From Deltaproteobacteria bacterium (GTDB lineage Bacteria; Desulfobacterota; Binatia; UBA9968): 63,072 bases of DNA. The notes below the pieces were generated by a model, which worked only from the letters and a program-made list of their open reading frames with translations, ran no database searches and was not told the origin of the DNA. Both the position numbers and the translations under genes were made by a program. The stretch lies in the NCBI GenBank assembly GCA_016193465.1, contig JACPSE010000100.1, positions 1 to 63,072 on the forward strand, written 5' to 3'. Of the stretch, positions 11,319 through 37,565 are shown in pieces (position 1 is the first letter of the stretch; every line of letters begins with the position of its first letter).

Positions 11319-11891
11319 ATGGCAACTGAAAGACAAAAATCTGCACGCATACGGATTCTCGATCCGGTTGCTGTTTTGGAAGGAGCGGGCCAGCAGTTGG
11401 CTCGGAGGCCGCAAGACCTGAATGGAAAGGTGCTCGTTTTGTTCGACAATCTTCCGAGAGGTCTTGGAGGGGGCGAGCTTGGGATGAATGAGATCTACGA
11501 GCGGTTGCAGGCCAAGCTAGAACAGCGCGTCAGTTTTGCCGAAGTTTTATGGAAGATAAAACCGAAGCGAGGGGCGCAGGCACCTTCGGAGTTGATGGAC
11601 GAGGTAGTGAATCAAGGGCAGGTGGTGATTAATGGTTCTTGTACGTGAGGGTCATGCACGTCCGCCTGTGTGCGTGACTCAGTAGAACTGGAAAGGCGAG
11701 GGAGACCGACAGCGACGATATGTTGGGACCGATTCGAGGGGCTGGCACGCGCTCAAGCGAAGGCTCTGGGGATGCCGTCGTTGCCGCTGGTAGTGATACG
11801 GGAGACGCGGTTTTTGCATACGCCGGAGGAGAAAGAACTCTGTGCCGAGCGGGCCGCGGAAGAAGTTATAAAAGCATTGACGGTTGGTTAA
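11319..11891 (+). CDS. UGSC-family selenoprotein (in-frame TGA at codon 110)
   Basis: Read conventionally this is a 109-residue ORF ending in TGA, followed in the same frame by 80 more codons to TAA. Across the TGA (11646-11648) the protein reads NGSCT-U-GSCTSACVRDSV. The N-terminal half (LNGKVLVLFDNLPRG, later IYERLQAKL) and the C-terminal half (GRPTATICWDRFEGLARAQA, then GMPSLPLVVI) both match the three minus-strand relatives. The product would be 190 residues with Sec110 in a U-x-x-C redox motif. ATG 11319 follows AAGGAGG. A hairpin starts 11 nt after the TGA. UGSC (seleno)proteins are a known but functionally uncharacterised family. The only alternative is a premature stop, unlikely because all four copies have TGA at the same position. 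Confidence 0.85.
11660..11678 (+). promoter_or_regulatory. Putative bacterial SECIS hairpin of UGSC gene 1
   Basis: GTC-CGC pairs with GCG-(T)-GAC around the loop CTGTGT, starting 11 nt after the TGA. It is a six-pair stem with one bulged base and a GU-containing loop. It is weaker than the three minus-strand counterparts but at the same distance. Confidence 0.55.
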
Positions 11892-24797: not shown

Positions 24798-26402
24798 CTA
24801 AATCGTAGCGGTTGTCATTTTTGCATCCTTAAAAGAGGGGATAAAAGCTGACTTTGTGCCCTTGCCTCCCGCAACAACGATCCAAATGTCCTCGGGACTA
24901 TCTACCACCGGAATTTCTCGCTTCTCACCTGCACGGAACCATCGGGGTCGCCTTTTGGCGATAAGCTCAAGGTTCTCTTCCGAGAATTTCTCATGGGGTA
25001 ATCGCGCCCGCTCAAACAGCACTTGGCGGATATCCTGCTTTTTATAGCCATCCCGGCGAAATATTGCAGCATGCTGCGGACCTATGATGATGAGAGCCTC
25101 GGAGGGCCACGAGCACATACTTACCCCCCCGCCAGATATCGCTGTTGCGGCGGTAGTGAGGAGTCCCTCAGCTGTCTTACTTGCCTTATCAACGATGCTA
25201 AGGATACCCGAACAGCCGAAAGCGGTGACAGTATTTATCTGCCTGTCGAATCCTCTTTCCACGTGCAGAGGCTCCCAGGGACTTTCCGCTTCGTTCTCTG
25301 CAATACAGAACGTATACTTTGCCGGCTGCCCGAGAGTCGCTTTGTCATAAACTCCGGGTATCCCACCTCCAATGTTAGTTAGGATCAGGCGAATGGCTCT
25401 TCCTATTGTTGCATTAGCCCGCCATCCCTGCCCCAGCACATTATACGAATAATTGATATTGAGTGAGTGTCGGCAAGGACCGTTGACAATGAACAGGGGC
25501 GTGACGTTGCCCGTAGTTGTTTGAACCGCGCTAAGATTAAAGCTGGGGAGCAGGATACACCGTAAAGCCGCCATGACGACCGGAACGAACTTCGGCTCAC
25601 AGCCCGCCATAACTGCATTGATGGCGACCTTTTCAACGGTTGCCTGCCCGTTGAGTGGAGGAATGATACCCAGAAGGTCGTCTCCCTTCTTACCCGATGC
25701 TTCAATCATCGCGTCAACGGCTTCCTTGGTCGGTGGAATGATCGGAAGCCCATCGGTCCAGCCTCTCTCTGAAAAATACTGAAAAATCTCACCGGGTGAA
25801 GCGGGCACCCGCAATATTTGCTCGGATTGGACTTCTTCCACCGTCGTTCCGCTGTCCGACGGGCCGAGAAAATCTTTGTCGCTTGTTAGCGCATCGATTA
25901 CCGGCTCAAATGTGGAATGCGCAAGAGATTTCAACTCATCCAGGGAAAGTGAACCAACGGGATGCGGAACCTTGATCAGTCGAAGGTTTTCTAGCCCGCG
26001 CACCTCAGCCTCAGCCTTCGCAAGTGTAAGAAACTCATCAGTGACGACAGTTACTGTTGGTTTACCTAAGCTCTCAAGCTTCACTGAGTCGTGGATACTC
26101 CACGACGTGCAGCCTCCTCAATCAGCAAAAGCGGATATTACGGCATCACATTTCTCAGCTAGTTCCGTTAGGCAATCCGCCTCAACGGAGGTCATCTTCC
26201 GTCTATAAAGCAGCCTCACCTGTGGAAATCTTCTTCCGAGGAGATCCCCTAGGTATTCCAAAAACCTGTCAGCGTTCGGCTTGTTATTATCTAATAAGCC
26301 GATAGTTCCGCTCTGTAGTGACGCGCGTCTGGGAGCCAATTGGCTCGACGAGATTTGTTTCTCCGCGATCGGGATCATTAACTCGAGATAATCCTCAGCC
26401 AT
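24798..26402 (-). CDS. UGSC selenoprotein fused to a long unknown domain (TGA codon 95)
   Basis: Two ORFs are one gene across TGA (26118-26120). The join reads VISAFAD-U-GGCTSWSIHDSV, continuing into KLESLGKPTVTVVTDEFLT. The UGSC part is about residues 1-185. The rest (about 195-534) is a domain with FSERGWTDGLPIIPPT, NAVMAGCEP, a CRHSLNINYS stretch and AENEAESPWEPLHVERGF, also present at 32254-33351 and 35868-37565. GGGGAGG precedes ATG 26402. The second motif position is Gly instead of Ser (UGGC). A perfect 8-bp hairpin begins 11 nt after the TGA. Total 534 residues with Sec95. The reaction is unknown; a Sec/Cys redox step is inferred from U-x-x-C. Confidence 0.88.
26088..26106 (-). promoter_or_regulatory. 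Putative SECIS hairpin of UGSC gene 2
   Basis: On the coding strand, GTCGTGGA-GTA-TCCACGAC forms eight perfect pairs with a GTA loop, starting 11 nt after the in-frame TGA. This is within the usual bacterial SECIS distance. Confidence 0.75.
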
Positions 26403-26513
26403 TATTCATACCTCCCCATTTTGCATGTTTATGCCGCCTGGCGACTACAAGAGCGATCAGTTACTCTTCACTACTTGATCGGTAAGCGTCTTCGCCTGTG
26501 TCGACATCCATCG

Positions 26514-27281
26514 CTAGTGGTCAGGACCCTTTCGTCGTTCTGCTAACAAACAGAGGTTGCTATAGGTTGCCTGCTCGATTTCAGCGAGCGAGGTTCCGCG
26601 AAGATCCGCCACCCTCTGGGCGATTTCTGCTATCCTCCCGGGGTGGTTCTGATTCTGGCGCCAAGATCTCACTGAAGAATCTGTATCCAGAAGAAGCCGA
26701 TCTAAGGGGATACGGCGTACCAGTGCTTCCGCCTCCGATCCGGTGTTCAAGAGAGTACGTCCGAAGGACACGAAAAGACCCAATTCCAAGCAGCGCTCCA
26801 TGGCCGCTAGATCGCCATCAAAGCCATGAATCAATCCGGTCAAAGAAGTAAACCCTTCTTCCGTTGCGACCTCGCGCAATTTTGCATGCGCTTGACGGCA
26901 GTGAAGGTTCAAGGGTAAGCCCATCTCAGTTGCCAAACGTATTTCCTGTCTGAGCAAGGTTATCTGCACGTCAAGGGTCTCCGGTGCCCGATTGAGATCC
27001 AGGCCAACCTCCCCGATAAAAAGGACCTTGGGATGCGTAGCCAGTTTCTTAAGTTGATGGTATGCCTGCTGGTCCAGTGGGCGCGCATACCACGGGTGGA
27101 CTCCCACGGCAGCCCAAATTCTCGATTCCGACTGCGCCAAGCTCACTGCCCGTGCCGATGATTCCAGATCGATGCCCACACTGATCAGCATCTCCACGTT
27201 TGCCTCTTGGCTCAGGCGAAGCATCAATTCGAGCTCTTTGGGTTTCAATCTATCTAGATGGACGTGAGCGTCAGCAAACAT
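26514..27281 (-). CDS. TatD-family metal-dependent hydrolase
   Basis: The 255-residue TIM-barrel protein has DAHVHLD (His6, His8), GVHPWYA, IGEVGLDLN, LHCRQAH and LLDTDSSV, the metal ligands of the TatD amidohydrolase group in the expected order. Members are 3' exonucleases or uncharacterised hydrolases. It sits between the CaiB-type gene and a UGSC gene in the same direction. Here a small-molecule hydrolase role is as plausible as DNase. Confidence 0.85.
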   Translation of the reverse strand: MFADAHVHLDRLKPKELELMLRLSQEANVEMLISVGIDLESSARAVSLAQSESRIWAAVGVHPWYARPLDQQAYHQLKKLATHPKVLFIGEVGLDLNRAPETLDVQITLLRQEIRLATEMGLPLNLHCRQAHAKLREVATEEGFTSLTGLIHGFDGDLAAMERCLELGLFVSFGRTLLNTGSEAEALVRRIPLDRLLLDTDSSVRSWRQNQNHPGRIAEIAQRVADLRGTSLAEIEQATYSNLCLLAERRKGPDH

Positions 27282-27311
27282 TTATATGACCAGTCTCCTC
27301 ACAACGTATTC

Positions 27312-28475
27312 TTATTTGTTGGAGTAGCGTTTAATGATTTCCTCTGTGTGCTCTCCGAGTGCTGGAACATGTCCTGTTGTTGGAGGAGCATGGCTGCCAA
27401 TTCTAATCGGAAGTACTGGAGTGCGCAGCTCCCTGCCTTCCGCGTCCAGCGTTAGTAACTGCCTGGCCTCTATTAATTGTGGGTCATTAACAAGATCTGC
27501 CGGGGTATTGACTGGGGCCGTTGGCACTCCATTGCGGTCGAGAAGTTGGATAAGATCATCGCGAGCATAGCCGGTCACCACGCTTTGAATCAGGGGAAGC
27601 AACCAGTCGCGGGTCGCTAGACGGTTTTCCTTGGTTGCCAGCCGTGGATCCTGTTTCCATGAAGCGAGGCCCAGCGTGTTGCAAAATCCAATCCAATGTT
27701 TATCGCTCGTGAATGCAATGATGACTTCTTTACCATCTCGTGTTTTGAAGCGATCATAGACTTCCCACCGCATACGTAGGGCCATGTTCTTCACCGTCAT
27801 GGGCTCCGGCACCTCTCCAGTGAGCTGATGCTCGATGACATAGCGCGCTACCCATAAAGCCACGGTTTCAAAGATCCCAGCGGAGATGTGCTCGCCACGC
27901 CCGGTCTCCTTTCGCCGGAAAAGCGCGGCCAATACCCCTATGGCAGCAAAAGCAGCTGCAGTCATGTCGGCGATCGAGGCGCCCGCTCGCATCGGCTGGC
28001 CGGGCGGCCCTGTCATGTAAGCCAGACCTCCCATCATTTGTGCCATCTCATCGACGAGAGGGCGGTGCGCATATGGGCCGGGGAGAAAACCTTTGATCGC
28101 GCAATAGATCAGCGCTGGGTTTATGCGGGATAGTTCTTGGTAACCGATGCCTAGTTTGTCGACAACTCCGGGACCGAGATTCTCAATCAAAACGTCACTG
28201 TCACGAATGAGTTCGTAGAAAACCTCCCGATCCTTTTCCGCTCGCAAATTCAATTGTACGCTCTTTTTGTTCCAGTTGAGGCTGTAAAACAGGCCGATGG
28301 ACGCAGGCCTGCGCATCGAATCGCCTCCATCGGGATGCTCGATCTTGATAACTTCAGCCCCAAGTCCGGACAAGATCATCCCCGCAAAGGGACCAGCAAC
28401 GATATGCCCAAGCTCGATGACGCGAATGCCCTTGAGGATGGGCTCTCTGGTGGAATCTGGCTGGGGCTCAGTCAA
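27312..28475 (-). CDS. CaiB/BaiF family CoA-transferase
   Basis: The 387-residue protein has LKGIRVIELGHIVAGPFAGM, LGAEVIKIEHP, NWNKKSVQLNL and DVLIENLGPG, and the catalytic-region sequence ALIYCAIKGFLPGPYAHRP ahead of an acidic DEM where class III enzymes carry their active Asp. It should move CoA from an acyl-CoA to a free acid. The TTG at 28475 is chosen because GGAGG lies 6 nt upstream and the gene then overlaps the preceding stop by 8 nt. The longer open frame upstream is the shadow of the synthetase gene. Confidence 0.87.
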   Translation of the reverse strand: MTEPQPDSTREPILKGIRVIELGHIVAGPFAGMILSGLGAEVIKIEHPDGGDSMRRPASIGLFYSLNWNKKSVQLNLRAEKDREVFYELIRDSDVLIENLGPGVVDKLGIGYQELSRINPALIYCAIKGFLPGPYAHRPLVDEMAQMMGGLAYMTGPPGQPMRAGASIADMTAAAFAAIGVLAALFRRKETGRGEHISAGIFETVALWVARYVIEHQLTGEVPEPMTVKNMALRMRWEVYDRFKTRDGKEVIIAFTSDKHWIGFCNTLGLASWKQDPRLATKENRLATRDWLLPLIQSVVTGYARDDLIQLLDRNGVPTAPVNTPADLVNDPQLIEARQLLTLDAEGRELRTPVLPIRIGSHAPPTTGHVPALGEHTEEIIKRYSNK

Positions 28476-30630
28476 CGGAAACCTCCCGGTAAAACAGCAC
28501 CTTTGCGAGAGCTTTAAGACAACGATCCATGCTGGCAAAGACTGGTATGCTCTCGGACAGCAACAAACGCTCCAGTTCTGCGCGCTTATGATCTGCAACG
28601 GTGTATGGCAGCACGACGGCGAGCGGCTTCCCGTGGGCTTTCGCTTCCACCAGGGTCTGCAGGAATTTCTCTCCCGCCAACGGGGCGTATTCTGTTGTGG
28701 TAGCGTACACGTCCATAGCCAGGTGGAAGACCAATAAAGAAATATTCTCATCCTCGGCGATCGCGGAAAAGATGCCCTGCATGATCTCTCGCTTGAAATA
28801 GCCCTGCGCCACGTCGACTGGATTTCTGGGATTTGTCCCGGGAGGCAACAACGCCCGGATCCGCTCCTGCGTTTTCGGCTCCAACTCGGGCAATACGAAC
28901 CCCTCTCGGTTACATGCATCGGCGTAAGTTACTGCGGCAGCGCCGCTCGGTGTAATTAGCCCAACACGCTTGCCGGTTCTTCTGCGAATATGAGTGAAAG
29001 CGACAATCAAATCGATGAGTTCTTCGAAGGTTTCGGCCTGGACCGCCCGGGCCTTGACAAAGGCTGCCCTCCAGGCCTCCGCCGAACCAGCCAACGCCCC
29101 GCTATGGGATGCCGCCGCCCGGGCTCCAGCCGCAGTCATGCCGCCCTTCAAAACGATGACAGGCTTGACCTTTGCAAGGCGTTCCAGCGCTGCAACAAAC
29201 GGGCGGGGGCGCCTTACTCCCTCGAGATACATGGCTACAATTTCCGTTTCATCATCACGGGCAAGGAAAGAAAGAAAAGCGTCGACCGTTACACCTGCTT
29301 CGCTTCCGTAGCTAATCCCTTTGCTTATTCCCAGGTCTTTTTCCAGTGCGATCTTCCCCAGACCCAGAAAGGTAACGCCGCTCTGTGAAAGTAGCGCCAG
29401 ATGCCCTGGCTTCTTGCTTACTTCACTAGGGATAATTCCCGATGCAGGGGAGTAGGGACCGAGGGCATTGGGACCAATCAAGTGCGTTTTCGTCCCTTCA
29501 ACGATCGCCTGCAACGATCGTAGCCGCTGAACTCCTTCTTCCGTCCCTGTCTCTCCGAAGCCGGAGGCGTGTACCGAGAGCCACGGAACCTCAAGCTTGA
29601 CGCATTCTCGCGCGATCGAAGAAACGGTCTCACTTCCGACTTCCACCATCACCAGGTCTGGACGCTCGGGGATATCGCTCACACTAGGGAAGGTGGGCCA
29701 GTGTTCCACTTGCTCTTTTCGCGAGACGGCGTACAAATTTCCCTTGTACCCGGCCTGTTCAACCCTCTTCAACCAGGCCCTTCCGCGGTTGTAGCGACCT
29801 GTTGTAGCTCCGACCACCGCGATACTCCGTGGCGCGAAAAGAGAGCTAATATTTTCATCTGGCAAATCTGTCCTGAAGTCTGTGTGCGCTTCCTCTTGGG
29901 TCAAGTCGTCGACAATGATTCGTGCGTCAGCCACCACCAGTTCGGCCTCCTTAGCGAAGAGGGGATTGATATCCAGCTCCCGGATCTCCGGGTACTCCGC
30001 TACGAGCCGAGATACGCAAACCAGGATGTCGGCCAGGGCATCGATGTCAACTCCCGGCTGCCCCCTGAACCCCTGGAGCAGCGGAAACGCGCGAATCTCT
30101 CGGATCATATTTAGAGCCTCTCGCCGCTCGAGAGGAGCAAGTCGATAACTCACGTCACGCATGAGCTCGACCGCTATACCACCGAGCCCGAAAAGCAGGA
30201 GCGGGCCGAAGTCCGTTCTCGTGGCTCCGACGATGAGCTCTAGTCCCAGCGCCACATGCTCAACCAGGATCCCTCGAATCTCGGCGTCGGGCTTGTATCG
30301 GCGTACTGCGTTCAAGATCCCATCGAAACCTGCCGCCACGGCTTCTTCAGAAGTTAATCCTATGACCACACCTCCCGCGTCGCTCTTGTGAGGGATCTGA
30401 GGCGATACAACTTTAAGAACTATAGGATATCCTATTTGGCGGGCCGCACTCACCGCTTCATCTTTGGTCAAGCAGATGCGCCCGGAAGGAGTTCTGATCC
30501 CAACGGCCCGTAGTATTTCCTTGGCTATGGGTTCGGTCAGAAGAGCACCTTCCTGCAACGATAGTAGATTCCGGATCTTAGCATTAACAGTGGTCTGGGC
30601 AGCCTTCTTTTCACCCACGGGAATCACCAT
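28468..30630 (-). CDS. ADP-forming acyl-CoA synthetase (beta-alpha fusion)
   Basis: The 720-residue protein starts with an ATP-grasp domain (about 15-240; YPIVLKVVSPQIPHKSDAGG, LFGLGGIAVELMRD). A CoA-binding domain (about 255-385; SIAVVGAT) and succinyl-CoA-ligase-like domains follow, with the phosphohistidine loop SHSGALAGS. It makes acyl-CoA plus ADP and phosphate from acid, ATP and CoA, or runs in reverse for ATP. The order is beta then alpha, while many bacterial fusions are alpha then beta. It starts 9 nt after the MaoC-like gene and overlaps the CoA-transferase. The acid substrate is unknown. Confidence 0.88.
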   Translation of the reverse strand: MVIPVGEKKAAQTTVNAKIRNLLSLQEGALLTEPIAKEILRAVGIRTPSGRICLTKDEAVSAARQIGYPIVLKVVSPQIPHKSDAGGVVIGLTSEEAVAAGFDGILNAVRRYKPDAEIRGILVEHVALGLELIVGATRTDFGPLLLFGLGGIAVELMRDVSYRLAPLERREALNMIREIRAFPLLQGFRGQPGVDIDALADILVCVSRLVAEYPEIRELDINPLFAKEAELVVADARIIVDDLTQEEAHTDFRTDLPDENISSLFAPRSIAVVGATTGRYNRGRAWLKRVEQAGYKGNLYAVSRKEQVEHWPTFPSVSDIPERPDLVMVEVGSETVSSIARECVKLEVPWLSVHASGFGETGTEEGVQRLRSLQAIVEGTKTHLIGPNALGPYSPASGIIPSEVSKKPGHLALLSQSGVTFLGLGKIALEKDLGISKGISYGSEAGVTVDAFLSFLARDDETEIVAMYLEGVRRPRPFVAALERLAKVKPVIVLKGGMTAAGARAAASHSGALAGSAEAWRAAFVKARAVQAETFEELIDLIVAFTHIRRRTGKRVGLITPSGAAAVTYADACNREGFVLPELEPKTQERIRALLPPGTNPRNPVDVAQGYFKREIMQGIFSAIAEDENISLLVFHLAMDVYATTTEYAPLAGEKFLQTLVEAKAHGKPLAVVLPYTVADHKRAELERLLLSESIPVFASMDRCLKALAKVLFYREVSVD

Positions 30631-30639
30631 GCCCTTCGC

Positions 30640-31857
30640 TCAATCACGGCGGTCCGCTCCTGAAGGCTCCGCCGGACGGATGACTAGCTTCACCGGCCCG
30701 GATTCCCTTGATGGTAACGCGACCTCTGCCCACCCTTGACTTGTAGTCTCCCCTCGTTGGTCTTCGCACCACACTTTGCAACGAACGAGATATTGACCAT
30801 CTCTTTCAAACTTATCCTCAACGGTACCCTTACAATAGGTCACATCTCCAACATAGTTAAATCGACGCAGTTGGGCATGTATACGTCGCAAAAAACCGTC
30901 ATCACCAGCCCAATCTGATATCAGCTGGCATAGCCATGCTACGCGTTGAGCTCCGTAGTCGTATGGAGCTGGATTTCCCGTCTTATGAGCTAGATCATCA
31001 GACCAGTGGACGCGCTCGACTATGTCGGGAACGCCATACTCATCCGCAGGAAACGCATTGGGATGCTTATCGCGGTACGCAAATGCCAGCTTGTGTGCGC
31101 GAATGTAAGGAGATCCACGACCCATCGCGAACCTAATCATGTCACTAATTGTCAGTGGCCCCTTGATCCGGCGAGGCAGCTGCTCCCCGATCTCAACATT
31201 CTCCCAGTACCTTGGCTCGCCACCCCTGCGCCGTTCATTCCGGTACTCGGCAGCAATCTCCTCGATTTGCTCCGGAGTCCAGCGCTGGCGCTCAATTTTG
31301 ATGTACTTACGCCGCTCACCGGGCGTTCTTTCACGCCCACCCCTAATGTAAAGACGGTCAGCCCGCGCCAATAGCTCTCCACGCTGGTTTATCGACTCCT
31401 GCCGGCGAATGAAATGAACAGTGCGCCCGGCGAATTCGCTCTGTTTGACTTGAACATCGCCGACATACACCCTAGCCCATGTCCGGTCCCCTGCATGCAC
31501 GGGCAACCAGAGTTCCACTGTATCGCCCGAGTACCACCCATGGATACCGCTAAGGGCGCCCCGTCCTTTCTCACGAACTTCAGGTGGGATTTCCTTGATT
31601 TTGCTGACGCCCATGGTCTCAACAAAATAAGGCGGCGCGATTATACCTCCCCAGCGCGTTTTACGTGCATATTCGGGGTCATTAAACAACGGATTGTCAT
31701 CGCCAATGCCCTCGGCATAATGCCGAATTGCGTCTAGAGTGGCGTACTCGTTGTAAGGGCGCGGCTGCGGAATTTCCACACCGATCCGCGCCTCCATGCG
31801 ACGGATATCCTCATCCGTGATTTCACGATGCTGTTGTCTTTCTTCAGGAGGTTCCAT
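30640..31857 (-). CDS. MaoC-like double hot-dog hydratase/dehydratase
   Basis: The 405-residue protein has two hot-dog domains. The first (about 20-180) has ARIGVEIPQPRPYN, GDDNPLFNDPEYA and GGIIAPP, typical of FAS1-like/MaoC N-terminal dehydratases. The second (about 225-385) has GEQLPRRIKGPLTISDMIRF and a late WCEDQRGETTSQGWAEV. It likely hydrates or dehydrates an acyl-CoA made by the neighbouring synthetase or transferase. Co-directional and 9 nt from the synthetase. Confidence 0.82.
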   Translation of the reverse strand: MEPPEERQQHREITDEDIRRMEARIGVEIPQPRPYNEYATLDAIRHYAEGIGDDNPLFNDPEYARKTRWGGIIAPPYFVETMGVSKIKEIPPEVREKGRGALSGIHGWYSGDTVELWLPVHAGDRTWARVYVGDVQVKQSEFAGRTVHFIRRQESINQRGELLARADRLYIRGGRERTPGERRKYIKIERQRWTPEQIEEIAAEYRNERRRGGEPRYWENVEIGEQLPRRIKGPLTISDMIRFAMGRGSPYIRAHKLAFAYRDKHPNAFPADEYGVPDIVERVHWSDDLAHKTGNPAPYDYGAQRVAWLCQLISDWAGDDGFLRRIHAQLRRFNYVGDVTYCKGTVEDKFERDGQYLVRCKVWCEDQRGETTSQGWAEVALPSRESGPVKLVIRPAEPSGADRRD

Positions 31858-31982
31858 TCCGTACCCCTTCTTTCAACGTGACCCGTAGGTTCGAGTGCGT
31901 TTGCTACATGTCGCGTTCGTTTTCAAAGATTTTTATTCTCAGGCCGCGCCGCAGCACGCCAAAGTGAGGCCGCATTGCGTAA

Positions 31983-32261
31983 TCACGCGTTGCGGATCAG
32001 TGCTACTTGCACAGCCTCAACCTCAACGCCGGCTTTCCGGAGTGTGTGTAATATCAAAGCTTCCATTTGACTTTCCGGAAGCAGGCACTCCTGGCAGGTA
32101 GTGTCACTCGTGTACAGATTCACCGTTACAAGCCTTTCTTCGACGACCTTACCTACTTCTAGACGCAGGCCATCCGCCTCAAAGCCAGTTTTAAGGGGTT
32201 CAATAGCCTCTTCAACTCTTCCTTTTATGTTGCTCATAGTAGTGTCGTTTAGCTTAGCCAT
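31983..32261 (-). CDS. NifU-like small CxxC protein (second copy)
   Basis: The 92-residue protein has DTTCQECLLPESQMEALILH, the same C-x-x-C helix start as at 10975-11235, and a similar GLRLEVGKVVEERLVTVNLY strand pattern. ATG 32261 overlaps the previous stop as ATGGCTAA; a longer in-frame start would run into that gene. It follows the unknown-domain protein and a UGSC selenoprotein, repeating the linkage seen in module A. Confidence 0.62.
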   Translation of the reverse strand: MAKLNDTTMSNIKGRVEEAIEPLKTGFEADGLRLEVGKVVEERLVTVNLYTSDTTCQECLLPESQMEALILHTLRKAGVEVEAVQVALIRNA

Positions 32262-33351
32262 TACTAGCTGTTGAAAGGCTGCTTCGCCTAATAGCTGGAT
32301 CAATCCGTAACGTCACAGGCGTAGACCGTGTGGTAGGAGGGAAAAAGACTGACTGACGCCCAGGCCCTCCAGCAACCACAACTAAAATATCCTCCGGTCG
32401 CTCGGCTAGACTGACCGTCCCGTCCGGCCACAAGCAAGTAGCGCGCTTCCGCATTTCTTCCAAGCCAAGCTTCTCCCCACTGTCAGGGTGGTAAATATCT
32501 TCAAATCGGCCGCGAGCATGATAGAACAAGTATTCCTGCGCTTGAGCCTTTGAAATACCGTCTCTAGCAATCTGATGCGCATTTTCAGGTCCCAAGACAA
32601 GAAAAGGCTTCATATCTTTCTTGTACAGATACTGCTTGTCAGCCGGTCTCATAGCATGCGCTAATGACTGCAAAGCACCAAGTCCCGTCGTCGTCCAGCC
32701 AGCACCGATTTTGTGTAGATAACCTGTCGCAAAAACAGTCACGGTACTCTCGTCTCGGCCAAACCCGGCCTCAACGTGGAACGCGTCCCAGGGTGATGCT
32801 TCTTCATTTTCTCCCCAACATAGAGTGTACTTGCCTGGCCAACCGTGGCATGATTTATCCGTACTCCCTGGGATCGCTCCGGCGATATTGATCTGTATGA
32901 GCCGCAATGCACGCCCGATGACAGCGTTAGCGAGTTTTCCTGGCCCGAACAGGTTGTTCGAGCAATTCACGTCAAGCTCGTGTCTAACAGGTCCGTTGAG
33001 CATTATGGAAACAGCGTTGCCTCCTGTTGTTGAGAGAGTGCCAAGCAGGTTAAACTCGGGATCGGCTATAGCCTGAACCGCTGCAACCAAAACGGGTAAA
33101 TGCGCGGGGAGGCAGCCCGCCATCACTGCATTGATTGCAATCGCTTCCACAGATGCGGGTGCCCACGCTGGCGGAAGCACGGCAACCTCATGGTCTGGCT
33201 CCAGCGTAGTGCCCTCCAACATTTTCTTAACCCGCTCCTCTGTGGGCGGAATTATCGGGAGTCCGTCTGTCATGCCCTTGAGGTAAAGCTCGCGATTGAT
33301 TTCCTCAAGTGAGTCCGGTACCTGCAGTCTATCTGCCTTCAGCGTTTCCAT
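32254..33351 (-). CDS. Stand-alone UGSC-associated unknown domain
   Basis: The 365-residue protein matches the C-terminal domain of the two UGSC fusions. It has KGMTDGLPIIPPT, AINAVMAGCLP, MLNGPVRHELDVNCSNN, GRALRLIQIN, GENEEASPWDAFHVEAGFGR and a final EDILVVVAGGPGR. No signal peptide or membrane segment. The conserved Cys after NAVMAG is shared by all copies and is a candidate catalytic or partner thiol. It lies 48 nt after the stop of a domain-only UGSC gene, so the pair is the split form of the fusions. I cannot assign a reaction. Confidence 0.8.
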   Translation of the reverse strand: METLKADRLQVPDSLEEINRELYLKGMTDGLPIIPPTEERVKKMLEGTTLEPDHEVAVLPPAWAPASVEAIAINAVMAGCLPAHLPVLVAAVQAIADPEFNLLGTLSTTGGNAVSIMLNGPVRHELDVNCSNNLFGPGKLANAVIGRALRLIQINIAGAIPGSTDKSCHGWPGKYTLCWGENEEASPWDAFHVEAGFGRDESTVTVFATGYLHKIGAGWTTTGLGALQSLAHAMRPADKQYLYKKDMKPFLVLGPENAHQIARDGISKAQAQEYLFYHARGRFEDIYHPDSGEKLGLEEMRKRATCLWPDGTVSLAERPEDILVVVAGGPGRQSVFFPPTTRSTPVTLRIDPAIRRSSLSTASNG

Positions 33352-33398
33352 AGGTGTACCTGTTCAGCCGGAGAGTTCATGCTCAAATGAAATCAGGC

Positions 33399-33929
33399 TC
33401 AAAGTCCCGCACTCCGTGTCAAGCTACCTACAACTGCACTAATAGCGGATTCTGACTTTCTGCGCGCTTCTGCGGGATCGACACCAGCCAACGGGTGGGG
33501 AACAATGATTATTGCCGCTTCAGGCAACCCGAGTGCCTTTGCCTGAAATCGTGCGGTCTGTTCAAACACATCCGTGCAGATTACTGTCGTTGCAACCCCG
33601 CGCTTTTCAAATTCAATAAGATCGTGGACACTCCACGATGTGCAAGAACCTCAATCGCCGCTCCCGGTAATAATGACGTCGGTAGCTTCAACTAATTCCT
33701 GCAGCAACTCTGCTGGAGCTGCTTTCAACGCATGTGGCTTGCGGCGATAGATGGCATTAAAATTAAACTTCTCCTGCAACAGCTGTTCGGTACGCTCTAG
33801 AAAGACGTCAAAATTTCGCTTTCCGTTATCGAGAAACCCAATAGTTTTACCGTTTAAATCCGCGGGACGAGGAGCAAGCCGCAAAGCCCGGTCACCTGGG
33901 TTAACCTTAGGACTTAAAATCGTGATCAT
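33399..33929 (-). CDS. UGSC-family selenoprotein (TGA codon 93)
   Basis: Across TGA (33651-33653) the frame reads VIITGSGD-U-GSCTSWSVHDLI. It continues EFEKRGVATTVICTDVFEQT, then FQAKALGLPEAAIIIVPHPL, to a true TGA stop at 33399. The product is 176 residues with Sec93. GGAGGTTTGG precedes the ATG. The perfect hairpin after the Sec codon has the same spacing as in the other copies. Use of TGA both as Sec and as the final stop in one gene argues for context-directed decoding. Its partner domain is the next gene downstream. Confidence 0.87.
33621..33639 (-). promoter_or_regulatory. Putative SECIS hairpin of UGSC gene 3
   Basis: The coding strand ATCGTGGA-GTG-TCCACGAT gives eight perfect pairs, 11 nt after the TGA. 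Compared with gene 2 the outer pair G-C has become A-T on both sides, a compensatory change. Confidence 0.75.
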
Positions 33930-34025
33930 CCAAACCTCCGTTTAGAGAGATGTTTATGAAAGATCGGATGGAAGAGGCAGTACCTCGCATGGCATTTTAA
34001 AAACCCATTGATAATCCCGCAGCTT

Positions 34026-35117
34026 CTATTTGGTCGGTATGAGCTTTTTTAGCACATCGCGGCCGGTGGTCGAGAGTTCCCGATATGCCCGGATAATCCG
34101 CCCGAAGTCTTCTGCGGTAGCCAATCCCACCTCTAGTCCGGCCACCTCTGCGGCCGCAACAAACCCAGGATCGCGAACCGTCGCCTCGAAAGCCCTCTTC
34201 CAAGCCTGGTAAACGGCATCGGGAATACCGGGCGGCGCGACGAAGAGCCGGCCCAGAACCGTCCCTACCGCAAGTCCCACCTCAAAAGCTTCTTTATGGT
34301 CTTTCATGACGTTTACAACATCAAACACATTTGGTGGCATGGATGCCCCGATCCGGCGCAACCAGTCCTCGGAAGGCCTGCCATTATGCCAGAAAACGGG
34401 AGCCAGAATCTTTTTTTCGATCCACTCAGGAAACATCCGGGGTACCTGCGTTTCAGCACACCATTGGGTTGCGTCAAGCTCTTTTCTGTCAAAGGCCGCC
34501 CACGCATCGGAAGCTCCTCCATAGCCATAGACCATCTTTATCGGGCCACCCGAGATCTCCACAAGTTGCGCCGCGAGAGAAACAGGGCCCCCTGGAGCCG
34601 AAGCTCCAAGTTTAAGCGGCCGGCCGAGCTTCAGGATCTCCGCCCACGAAGTCGCGATGTCGCGACGAACGCACAGCAGAAACGGTCGCCCGGCCTCGCC
34701 GCTCGGGCTGCCAAGGACCCGCACGGTGTTCACGTCAAAGTCCGGAATGTCCCCTTCGACCAATTCCCGCAAGACCCAGCGCGGGTTCATAACCCCGATT
34801 GTCAGCCCGTCGGGCTTGGCCTTCATCGTCGCCGTCAGGCCGCGCAGCCCCCCTGCGCCAGGCATATTTTGCACGGAAAACGATGGGTTGGCTGGAAGAT
34901 GCTTGCCCCCAAAGCGGGCCACCAGGCGCGCAAACACGTCGTAATTACCGCCCGGAGCGGACCCTACGATGATCGTCACGGTCTTCCCGCTGAAGTGCTT
35001 GGCCAGATCTTGCCCTTCCGCCCGGGCCGGCAGAGAGAGAAAAGATATGAGCGCCGCCAGCATTGCGACTGAAGCCAGCGACCATGATGAGCTAGACTTT
35101 ACAACTCCATGCACCAT
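34026..35117 (-). CDS. TctC-like solute receptor (paralogue 4)
   Basis: The 363-residue protein has a signal peptide (ends near PARAEG), VTIIVGSAPGGNYDVFARLV, NMPGAGGLRG and a C-terminus ending in ELSTTGRDVLKKLIPTK. Its first 40 residues are almost the same as paralogue 3, while the ligand lobes differ, suggesting a recent shared origin. The ATG is one base after the TGA of the truncated domain copy (35119-35824), whose end supplies GAGGTG as ribosome site. No TctA is adjacent, so it probably uses the fusion subunit at 18632. Confidence 0.84.
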   Translation of the reverse strand: MVHGVVKSSSSWSLASVAMLAALISFLSLPARAEGQDLAKHFSGKTVTIIVGSAPGGNYDVFARLVARFGGKHLPANPSFSVQNMPGAGGLRGLTATMKAKPDGLTIGVMNPRWVLRELVEGDIPDFDVNTVRVLGSPSGEAGRPFLLCVRRDIATSWAEILKLGRPLKLGASAPGGPVSLAAQLVEISGGPIKMVYGYGGASDAWAAFDRKELDATQWCAETQVPRMFPEWIEKKILAPVFWHNGRPSEDWLRRIGASMPPNVFDVVNVMKDHKEAFEVGLAVGTVLGRLFVAPPGIPDAVYQAWKRAFEATVRDPGFVAAAEVAGLEVGLATAEDFGRIIRAYRELSTTGRDVLKKLIPTK

Positions 35118-35118
35118 T

Positions 35119-35824
35119 TCACTTCACCTCTACAGTAATCATAAAATCGTTTGGCGATACAAGCAAAGGGACTAGCCGATTCGGGTCTGTAGATTCGCAA
35201 TAGTATTTGGGCAACCTACCGCGGTTAACCGCGTCACACAAGGAACCAATCTCAGGGCGTAATCTCTCGAACCGTACGGCAGGGAATGTCGCACGCTCAT
35301 ATAAATACTGTCTCATTCGATCCTTAGAATAACCACCATTTGCGATTTTTTCTGCTATACAGGGGCTTAGTAGGATCTGTGGGCGCACACCAGGTCCGCT
35401 GTAAGTAACCCTAAACAGAATTAGTTGAATGTCTACTATGCGCGCTGCCAGTTTATCGAGAATTTCCTCTGCCGTATTCGCACCGATTGAAAATACCGAA
35501 TCTGTGCAGGTGCAGGAATTGATTGTCACAACATTCTCACCAGCCCTGAAACCTTGATCGACACTCATCGGTTCCCAGCCAATCTTGGCAACGGCATCCC
35601 CGTTCTCTGCCAGAACCACCCTCCATGTCCCACCAAATGTGCCCTTATCAGTTATATGTGGCAGAAATCCAGCGACGTTCCTCAAATACAGTCTCCAAAA
35701 GCGACCGATACTCGTATTCGATTGAAAACCAACGCGAAGAGCCCCCTGTTTGTAGTTAAAGTCCAATTCCTTGATGATCGGTCCGTTTATTGTAATTAGC
35801 ACCTCTGTTCCTGGCGTATGGCCA
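35119..35824 (-). pseudogene. Truncated tandem duplicate of the UGSC-associated domain
   Basis: About 230 residues from LITINGPIIKELDFNYKQ to DDFMITV-like DFMITVEVK repeat the C-terminal part of the gene at 35868-37565, with roughly one base in ten changed. The UGSC part and the first third of the domain are missing. The copy has no frameshift and an open frame with many synonymous changes, so it could still be translated from an internal ATG (35802). It now ends by leading straight into a TctC-like gene. Confidence 0.75.
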
Positions 35825-35867
35825 ACCTACAGCAATTCGTGTTATAAATCAAATAAATAGAGCATCA

Positions 35868-37565
35868 TCACTTATTTTTATCCTCCTTAAGAAGTTCCGC
35901 CCAGTTGGCTGGCAGCTTTATCTTCTTGCTCACCGGGTAGCCGATAAAACCATTTTGGGCGCATATGAAGCAGTTATCTCTGTCTGGGTCGCCGCTTACG
36001 GTAATCATGAAATCGTCTGGCGATAAAAGCATCGGGACTAACCGACTTGGCTCTGTAGATTCGCAATAGCGCTTTGGCAACCTACCCTGCTTAACAGCGT
36101 CACACAATGAACCAATATCAGGACGTAGCCGCTCGAACCGCATGGCAGAGAATGTTGTGCGCTCGTATAAATACTGTCTCATTCGATCCTTAGAATAGCC
36201 GCCATTTGCGATTTTTTCTGCCACGCAGGGACTTAAAAGGATTTGTGGCCGTACACCAGGGCCGCTGTAAGTAACCCTAAACAAACTTAGTTGAATGTCT
36301 ACTATGCGCGCTGCAAGCTTATCGAGAATCTCCTCTGTCGTGTTCGCCCCAATCGAAAATATCGAATCTGTGCAGGTGCAGGAATTGATTGTTACAACGT
36401 TGTCACCAGCCCTGAAACCTTGGTCAACACTCATCGGTTCCCAGCCAACCTTGGCAACGGCATCCTCGTTCTCCGCCAGAACCACTCTCCATGTCCCACC
36501 AAATGTGCCCTTATCAGTTTTATGTGGCAGAAATCCAGCCACGTTTCTCAAATACAACCTCCAAAAGCGACCGATACTCGTATTCGACTGAAAGCCAACG
36601 CGAAGAGCCCCTTGTTTGTAGTTAAAGTCCAATTCCTTGATGATCGGCCCGTTTATAGTAATCAGCACCTCCGTTCCCGGCGTATGGCCAAGGTGCTCTT
36701 GGCCGAATTTAGGGTCTACCATCCCCTCTACAACCGATATTAAGACTGGCATATACTCGGGTCGGCAGCCAGCCATCACGCCATTGACAGCAGTGTTCCA
36801 TACCGTTGCTTCACGCCTATCAGGCAGAAGCACGCCTATCACTTCGTCAGCGGGCCGATCCGTGTATTTCAGAAATTTTCCAACCTTCTCCATGGTAGGC
36901 GGCACGATGGGCAACCCATCACCCCACTCCTTATCATAGAAGAACTCGTTGACCTCCTCAAACGAACCCTCGAACACAATTTCTCTAGGCCCGGGCTCGC
37001 TGGGAAGCAGGGGTTCCAAAGGCTGGGCCGTTAAACACGTAACGACCTGATCCAAGAGGCTCCTCTCAACGTTTTTTCGCCGCTCCTCAACAGAATGAAG
37101 ATTAACATGTCCAGGGTACTTTGCCATCGGTAAGTTCGGCATCCCCAAACCTGCCGCTGTGGCGCTCCCTTGCACTGCAAAACCTTCACAAACAAGGGAT
37201 GCGGTGGGTAAGCCCAACTTCTCGACCTCTATACTCGCCCGCACAACTGCGGGCGTGCAACTCCCTCAACAGCCTACACCCGATATCACCGCTTCACATC
37301 CATTCTCACAAAGTTTATCCGGGAGGGCTGCGAGCACTGCTGCCTCTTTCGCTCCATGTGTAGAACCGAATACTTCATAACTTACAAACTTAATCCCGGG
37401 ATACAGCCTGGTCAATTCCGTTTCTAAGGTGCGGAAAAGCTCATCCCCATGGAAATCCAAATTCCACAGCTCACCGATCGTCTTACCATCCAAGGTGTCC
37501 AGGCGCTTGGCCAAGCGCCCTAGCCCTCCAGCTTTCCTACCACGCGGCCATAAAACTCTGTACAT
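35868..37565 (-). CDS. UGSC selenoprotein fused to a long unknown domain (TGA codon 100)
   Basis: Across TGA (37266-37268) the frame reads AVISGVGC-U-GSCTPAVVRASI, then EVEKLGLPTASLVCEGF. The UGSC region (about 1-190) is followed by the long domain (about 220-530) with DKEWGDGLPIVPPT, NGVMAGCRPEYMPVL, LITINGPII and NSCTCTDS. This copy also has an extra Cys-rich tail (DRDNCFICAQNG). Total 565 residues with Sec100. The motif has an extra Cys before Sec (C-U-G-S-C). GGGAGGATAAAGGCA precedes ATG. It is distinct from the fusion at 24798-26402, in which the TSWS motif is kept. Confidence 0.87.
37236..37255 (-). promoter_or_regulatory. Putative SECIS hairpin of UGSC gene 4
   Basis: The coding strand CGCCCGCA-GTTG-TGCGGGCG forms eight perfect pairs with a GTTG loop, 10 nt after the TGA. 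The stem sequence is entirely different from genes 2 and 3 yet fully paired. Confidence 0.75.

Follow-up and report, generated by a model that had tools for sequence, protein, structure and literature searches.

Knowledge of the UGSC proteins as a selenoprotein family goes back at least to the Global Ocean Sampling study, with 255 selenocysteine (Sec) and 21 cysteine (Cys) versions listed there (PMC2398784), and the family is included in a 2026 review (PMC13188914). The consensus for the bacterial selenocysteine insertion sequence (bSECIS) that serves as the criterion here is taken from passages of the same review. We analyzed four UGSC genes, each with an in-frame TGA followed by a hairpin, on a 63,072-nt stretch of a Binatia draft genome (contig JACPSE010000100.1, positions 1 to 63,072; henceforth the window). 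The hairpins are almost certainly bacterial SECIS elements, situated inside the coding region just after the UGA. SelB, carrying Sec-tRNA(Sec) and GTP, would bind the apical loop of such a hairpin and would deliver selenocysteine at the UGA in place of termination. In line with this standard mechanism, both SelB binding and actual Sec insertion would be expected in this organism.

The genes share with the described family (PF24696/NF041046) a profile match and Sec at the U of the UGSC motif, and both Sec and Cys versions are known. The genome is distinguished by eleven Sec copies, some with an unnamed C-terminal domain, and by UAGN and UGTS variants without the second Cys. The hairpins of genes 2, 3 and 4 resemble the bSECIS outlined in the review passages: an 8-bp stem stands just after the UGA, the small loop has an early G followed by U, and the spacing is 18–19 nt. 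Gene 1 differs from that description in its 12-nt spacing and in the absence of G from the first two loop positions, and the UGSC family employs several stem registers. Both the protein family and the type of signal are already known; the additions made here are a control in which Sec and Cys genes encode one and the same peptide, the description of several stem registers, and a distant relation to GrdB.

UGSC genes and their TGA codons

All four genes match PF24696 with scores of 117–172 bits, compared with a gathering score of 25. Gene 1 (11319..11891, plus strand; E 4e-36 with its one TGA taken as Sec and read through) and gene 3 (33399..33929, minus strand; E 3e-50) are single-domain. Gene 2 (24798..26402, minus strand; E 2e-45) and gene 4 (35868..37565, minus strand; E 1e-33) have a fused C-terminal domain of about 360–390 residues, for which a Pfam search returned no match in either gene. 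Relative to the equivalog cut-off of 125 bits for NF041046, genes 2 and 3 lie above (135.6 and 140.8 bits) and genes 1 and 4 below (85.6 and 60 bits). A stand-alone domain that by eye resembles the C-terminal parts of genes 2 and 4 is encoded directly downstream of gene 3 (32254-33351, minus strand); it has no Pfam or NCBIfam match.

In every case the TGA stands at the U that opens the U-G-S-C motif, the motif being UGSC in genes 1, 3 and 4 and UGGC in gene 2. The codons are located at 11646..11648 (plus strand; aligned to the Sec/Cys position of the family), 26118..26120, 33651..33653 and 37266..37268 (all minus strand). The pattern TGA-GG[N] alone is not significant, with four occurrences found and 2.1 expected. 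The draft genome, of which the window is one contig, totals 4.5 Mb in 238 contigs and encodes 11 UGSC genes, each with a single in-frame TGA, as well as one fragment at a contig edge.

One alternative is gene decay, with the TGAs as genuine stops or errors and the downstream frames as remnants of pseudogenes. It would be in line with the failure to find Sec machinery in this assembly, discussed below, but the TGA has the same codon position in the genome's 11 UGSC genes and in some 160 homologues. In addition, open frames and family matches flank the TGA, and Cys substitutes for the UGA-encoded residue in relatives. We give gene decay virtually no credence.

Hairpins of genes 2, 3 and 4

A sequence-only reading of the window had placed a stem 10–11 nt after each TGA, and for genes 2, 3 and 4 these stems hold as drawn, with exact coordinates. 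They consist of GTCGTGGA/TCCACGAC in gene 2 (26106-26088; 8 bp, loop GUA, spacing 19 nt), ATCGTGGA/TCCACGAT in gene 3 (33639-33621; 8 bp, loop GUG, spacing 19 nt) and CGCCCGCA/TGCGGGCG in gene 4 (37255-37236; 8 bp, loop GUUG, spacing 18 nt, shifted register), all on the minus strand. All three agree with the bSECIS limits for stem, loop and spacing, and each stem is the core of the minimum-energy fold predicted for the 42 nt after the TGA. The energies of these folds are -19.1, -12.1 and -18.7 kcal/mol for genes 2, 3 and 4, with z values of -3.7, -2.4 and -3.5 relative to dinucleotide shuffles. In all four genes of the window, the fold over the same length is more stable than the bSECIS free-energy limit of -7.5 kcal/mol.

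The folding of single genes was also compared with a synonymous null in which the peptide is fixed and codons are sampled from the window's own usage. Over 42 nt, this gives p = 0.0010 for gene 2 and 0.0027 for gene 4; over 30 nt, p is 0.0067, 0.013 and 0.0007 for genes 2, 3 and 4.

Sec and Cys genes with the same peptide

A second alternative attributes the stem to the conserved peptide GSCTSWSVHD and codon bias, with no selection on the RNA. In its favor, a large part of the main stem falls in codons for conserved residues, and pairing still reaches 76% of positions in Cys genes that encode this peptide. Sec and Cys genes nonetheless pick different synonymous codons for an identical peptide, and their comparison is the cleanest control for selection at the RNA level. 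The SWSVH peptide is encoded with AGT-GTC in 32 of 32 UGA genes and in none of four Cys genes, three of which use AGC-GTG and one AGC-GTC. In a wider set, the serine codon is AGT in 49/49 UGA genes versus 2/15 Cys genes (Fisher p 8e-12); p values of these codon comparisons are nominal, as the rows are related. The Cys set comes mostly from actinobacteria and other GC-rich genomes, and composition may account for part of its preference for AGC. Cases within the window's own class argue against composition as the whole explanation: the Cys genes L286 and L287 have TGG-AGC-CTG-CAC, which breaks the closing pair, and the UGA gene L288 has TGG-AGT-GTC-CAC.

Folding beyond the synonymous null is likewise confined to the region after the TGA. 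The mean z of UGA genes is -1.59 in the 42-nt window at +3..+44, compared with -0.13 for Cys genes at the same position (Mann-Whitney p 7e-8), and ranges from -0.08 to -0.51 in seven other 42-nt windows of the UGA genes. Given this position dependence, the differing codons and the survival of the stem with other peptides, a mere by-product of the peptide is a highly improbable origin of the hairpins.

Pairing and covariation across the family

The family comparison draws on UGSC matches in 58 relatives and in 296 genomes from the phylum to which G041, a member of the window's class, belongs, supplemented by a scan for the Cys type. A narrower alignment was used for the collection scan, as the mixed alignment of 18 sequences was too divergent. 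Once the UGA/Cys column had been placed by profile, the set comprised 162 UGA and 27 Cys genes, all distinct. Positions are numbered from the T of the TGA as 0, and the stem pairs join 15-20 with 31-26.

The closing pair is G-C in 90 UGA genes and C-G in 54. It changes on both sides together, being concordant in 93/93 comparable genes, and the remaining stem pairs alternate between G-C, C-G, A-U, U-A and G-U. All six pairs are present in 101/162 UGA genes versus 3/27 Cys genes. Over the 162 unselected UGA rows, pairing amounts to 81%; shuffling lowers the figure to 63% (67% at the highest) and sliding of the partner strand to 48% or less. Pairing in the 27 Cys genes is no higher than in their own shuffles. 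Covariation was scored on 65 in-register stems of other genomes and gave 0.329, a value reached in 0/500 shuffles, against 0.101; these rows were preselected for pairing, and the paired percentage among them is partly by construction. Switches were counted, again on rows preselected for pairing, on a protein tree built without the stem-coding residues; the minimum is five for the closing pair, seven for pair 18/28 and five for pair 17/29. The stem is found with peptides as different as TPAVVRA, TSGCMLD and SSSSVLD, which bears out the earlier observation that pairing is kept while the amino acids differ. The GU of the loop is likewise retained across the codons AGT (Ser), TGT (Cys) and GGT (Gly).

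Compensatory change, which the sequence-only reading saw in all four genes, is solid only once homologues are included, and there for the main stem type of genes 2 and 3. Within the window, strict compensation is limited to one pair, the outermost in genes 2 and 3 (G-C to A-U), because genes 1 and 4 are out of register with them.

A covariance model of the main stem type, built solely from stems of other genomes, ranks gene 2 first (35.7 bits) and gene 3 second (31.4 bits) in the window. Gene 4 is missed by the model and gene 1 scores just 8 bits, both being of other stem types. Seven more UGA-type UGSC genes of the same genome score 14–32 bits. The model also gives some Cys genes up to 25 bits; it carries primary sequence and is therefore not specific as a SECIS detector. 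Strong evidence that the RNA structure itself is under selection after the TGA, as had been proposed, comes from the combination of covariation, the synonymous null, Cys homologues with the same residues but no stem, and this held-out model.

Other stem types and gene 1

Several hairpins depart from the main type. Gene 4 has a 4-nt loop and belongs to a register-shifted stem type with CGCCCGC, which it shares with its only close relatives, L126 and L127. Genes with USTCAPAV carry a GC-rich stem (CGGC-GGTC-GCCG), and the stem CTGGT-CGTGA-ACCAG of L115 and L117 is situated farther downstream. Five genes of the UGSCTKYLVY/KFLV type (L223, L224, L226, L229, L230) have no standard bSECIS; by eye, their stem is longer and imperfect (for example AAAGTaCCTCG with CGAGGACTTT) and closes a large loop, and they perhaps represent a separate SECIS class. 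The bSECIS scan demanded perfect stems, with the result that bulged forms were missed and its counts are too low.

Two further variations were observed among the TGA-type genes. The second Cys of the motif is gone in L006, L007 and L111 (UAGN, UGTS), in which the hairpin is retained. In two different genomes, L221 (plus strand) and L222 (minus strand) have two successive in-frame TGAs (TGA TGA GGN TGC), possibly encoding tandem selenocysteines.

For gene 1, the stem originally drawn (GTCCGC/GCG-T-GAC, 11660-11678) is weak, at -6.7 kcal/mol and p = 0.25. A different hairpin is preferred, at 11649..11680 on the plus strand, in which 11649-11660 pairs with 11669-11680 to form 12 bp around an 8-nt loop, UCCGCCUG. 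It begins at the first base after the TGA, and its energy of -18.5 kcal/mol beats the synonymous null at p = 0.007. A second, nearly identical copy of this gene (L145) is located on contig C211 of the genome, the end of which cuts it inside the hairpin region, at the equivalent of window position 11664. The SECIS interpretation is right for genes 2–4, and the stable though atypical hairpin of gene 1 likely functions as a SECIS as well.

Exceptions and the selenocysteine machinery

Some observations weigh against the identification of these hairpins as SECIS elements. Taken by itself, gene 3 does not fold significantly better than its synonymous variants over 42 nt (p = 0.145). The gene 1 hairpin lies outside the two bSECIS rules on spacing (12 nt) and on G in the first two loop positions, and the gene has no close homologue for covariation, the nearest outside the genome being about 40% identical. 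Few of the switches on the protein tree fall on well-supported branches, so firmly independent compensatory events are small in number. A handful of genes (e.g. L113, L118, L167, L234) retain the TGA without a hairpin that conforms to the standard model. Finally, SelA, SelB, SelD and tRNA-Sec all score below cut-off in the draft genome, which is rated 100% complete.

With respect to the stem, most TGA genes that lack the main form show another hairpin, either in a shifted register or of the longer form. Those without any model-conforming hairpin are too few to overturn the SECIS interpretation.

With respect to the machinery, SelB is above cut-off in 48 of the 58 relatives, including 39/43 with UGA-type UGSC versus 9/15 of the others. 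The congener G003 possesses selA, selB, selD and tRNA-Sec within a span of about 5 kb, and the loss of one contig would therefore explain their absence. A search of the draft genome with the congener's 12.7-kb sel region yielded nothing beyond repeats, a toxin-antitoxin pair and weak matches to paralogues. A match adjoining the congener's tRNA-Sec (contig C197) was considered as the sel locus and rejected, as it is a toxin-antitoxin pair. In G008, selB, selD and tRNA-Sec are likewise not found; in G013, tRNA-Sec is present and SelB and SelD are not found, a pattern which suggests that losses of sel genes happen in such assemblies. An assembly gap is the likely reason for the missing genes. It is very unlikely that the genome is truly without selA, selB, selD and tRNA-Sec and decodes UGA in 11 UGSC genes by an unrecognised route; a gap is far more likely.

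The same two features, the undetected sel genes and a gene 1 hairpin unlike bSECIS, could point to a different purpose for the hairpins, namely programmed readthrough by a near-cognate tRNA, a translational pause or mRNA stability instead of SelB-directed Sec insertion. In contrast, the loop GU and the spacing in genes 2–4 agree with the SelB-type bSECIS model, most relatives with UGA-type UGSC have SelB and tRNA-Sec, and the stem is lost where Cys replaces the UGA-encoded residue. A purpose of this kind is extremely improbable, and we retain the SECIS interpretation.

Relation to GrdB

Profile comparison aligns UGSC to the C-terminal Sec region of GrdB (GrdB/PrdB selenoproteins, PF07355), with UGA on UGA (hhalign probability 96%, E 3.4e-9 for one comparison; 101 columns, 17% identity). 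The GrdB genes of relatives also have a hairpin at the same distance after the TGA. UGSC differs in lacking the N-terminal part of GrdB. Genes 1 and 3 have no match to the Pfam GRDB profile even with the E-value limit set at 10, and PF07355 has no match anywhere in the draft genome. The GrdB sequences of relatives (L248-L255) mostly read UGTSTRSG, with Ser where the motif has Cys residues. A relation between UGSC and GrdB is not stated in the passages of the 2026 review that deal with them (PMC13188914). The predicted structure of UGSC is a confident alpha/beta domain (predicted local distance difference test score, pLDDT, 93). A Foldseek search with this model returned only generic alpha/beta folds, with template-modelling scores of at most about 0.5, and no close solved relative.

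Genomic context

The genes neighboring the UGSC genes encode TctA- and TctC-like transport proteins, MmgE/PrpD-like enzymes, a CoA-transferase and a CoA ligase; this neighborhood is compatible with organic-acid metabolism, no more than that. An Rfam scan of the whole window detected a tRNA and a Group II intron D1-D4 (RF02003; 85-222, minus strand, 110 bits), and nothing else.

Implications

With Sec and Cys versions of one peptide as an internal control, the UGA codons are almost certainly Sec codons and not stops, so standard annotation would truncate four genes in this window and about eleven in the genome. The UGSC family also offers a clean system in which to measure the effect of an RNA element on the choice of synonymous codons and of amino acids. 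In addition, its distant relation to the Sec domain of GrdB suggests that the family has a reductase-type function, and UGSC proteins may thus act reductively in a manner similar to GrdB/PrdB.

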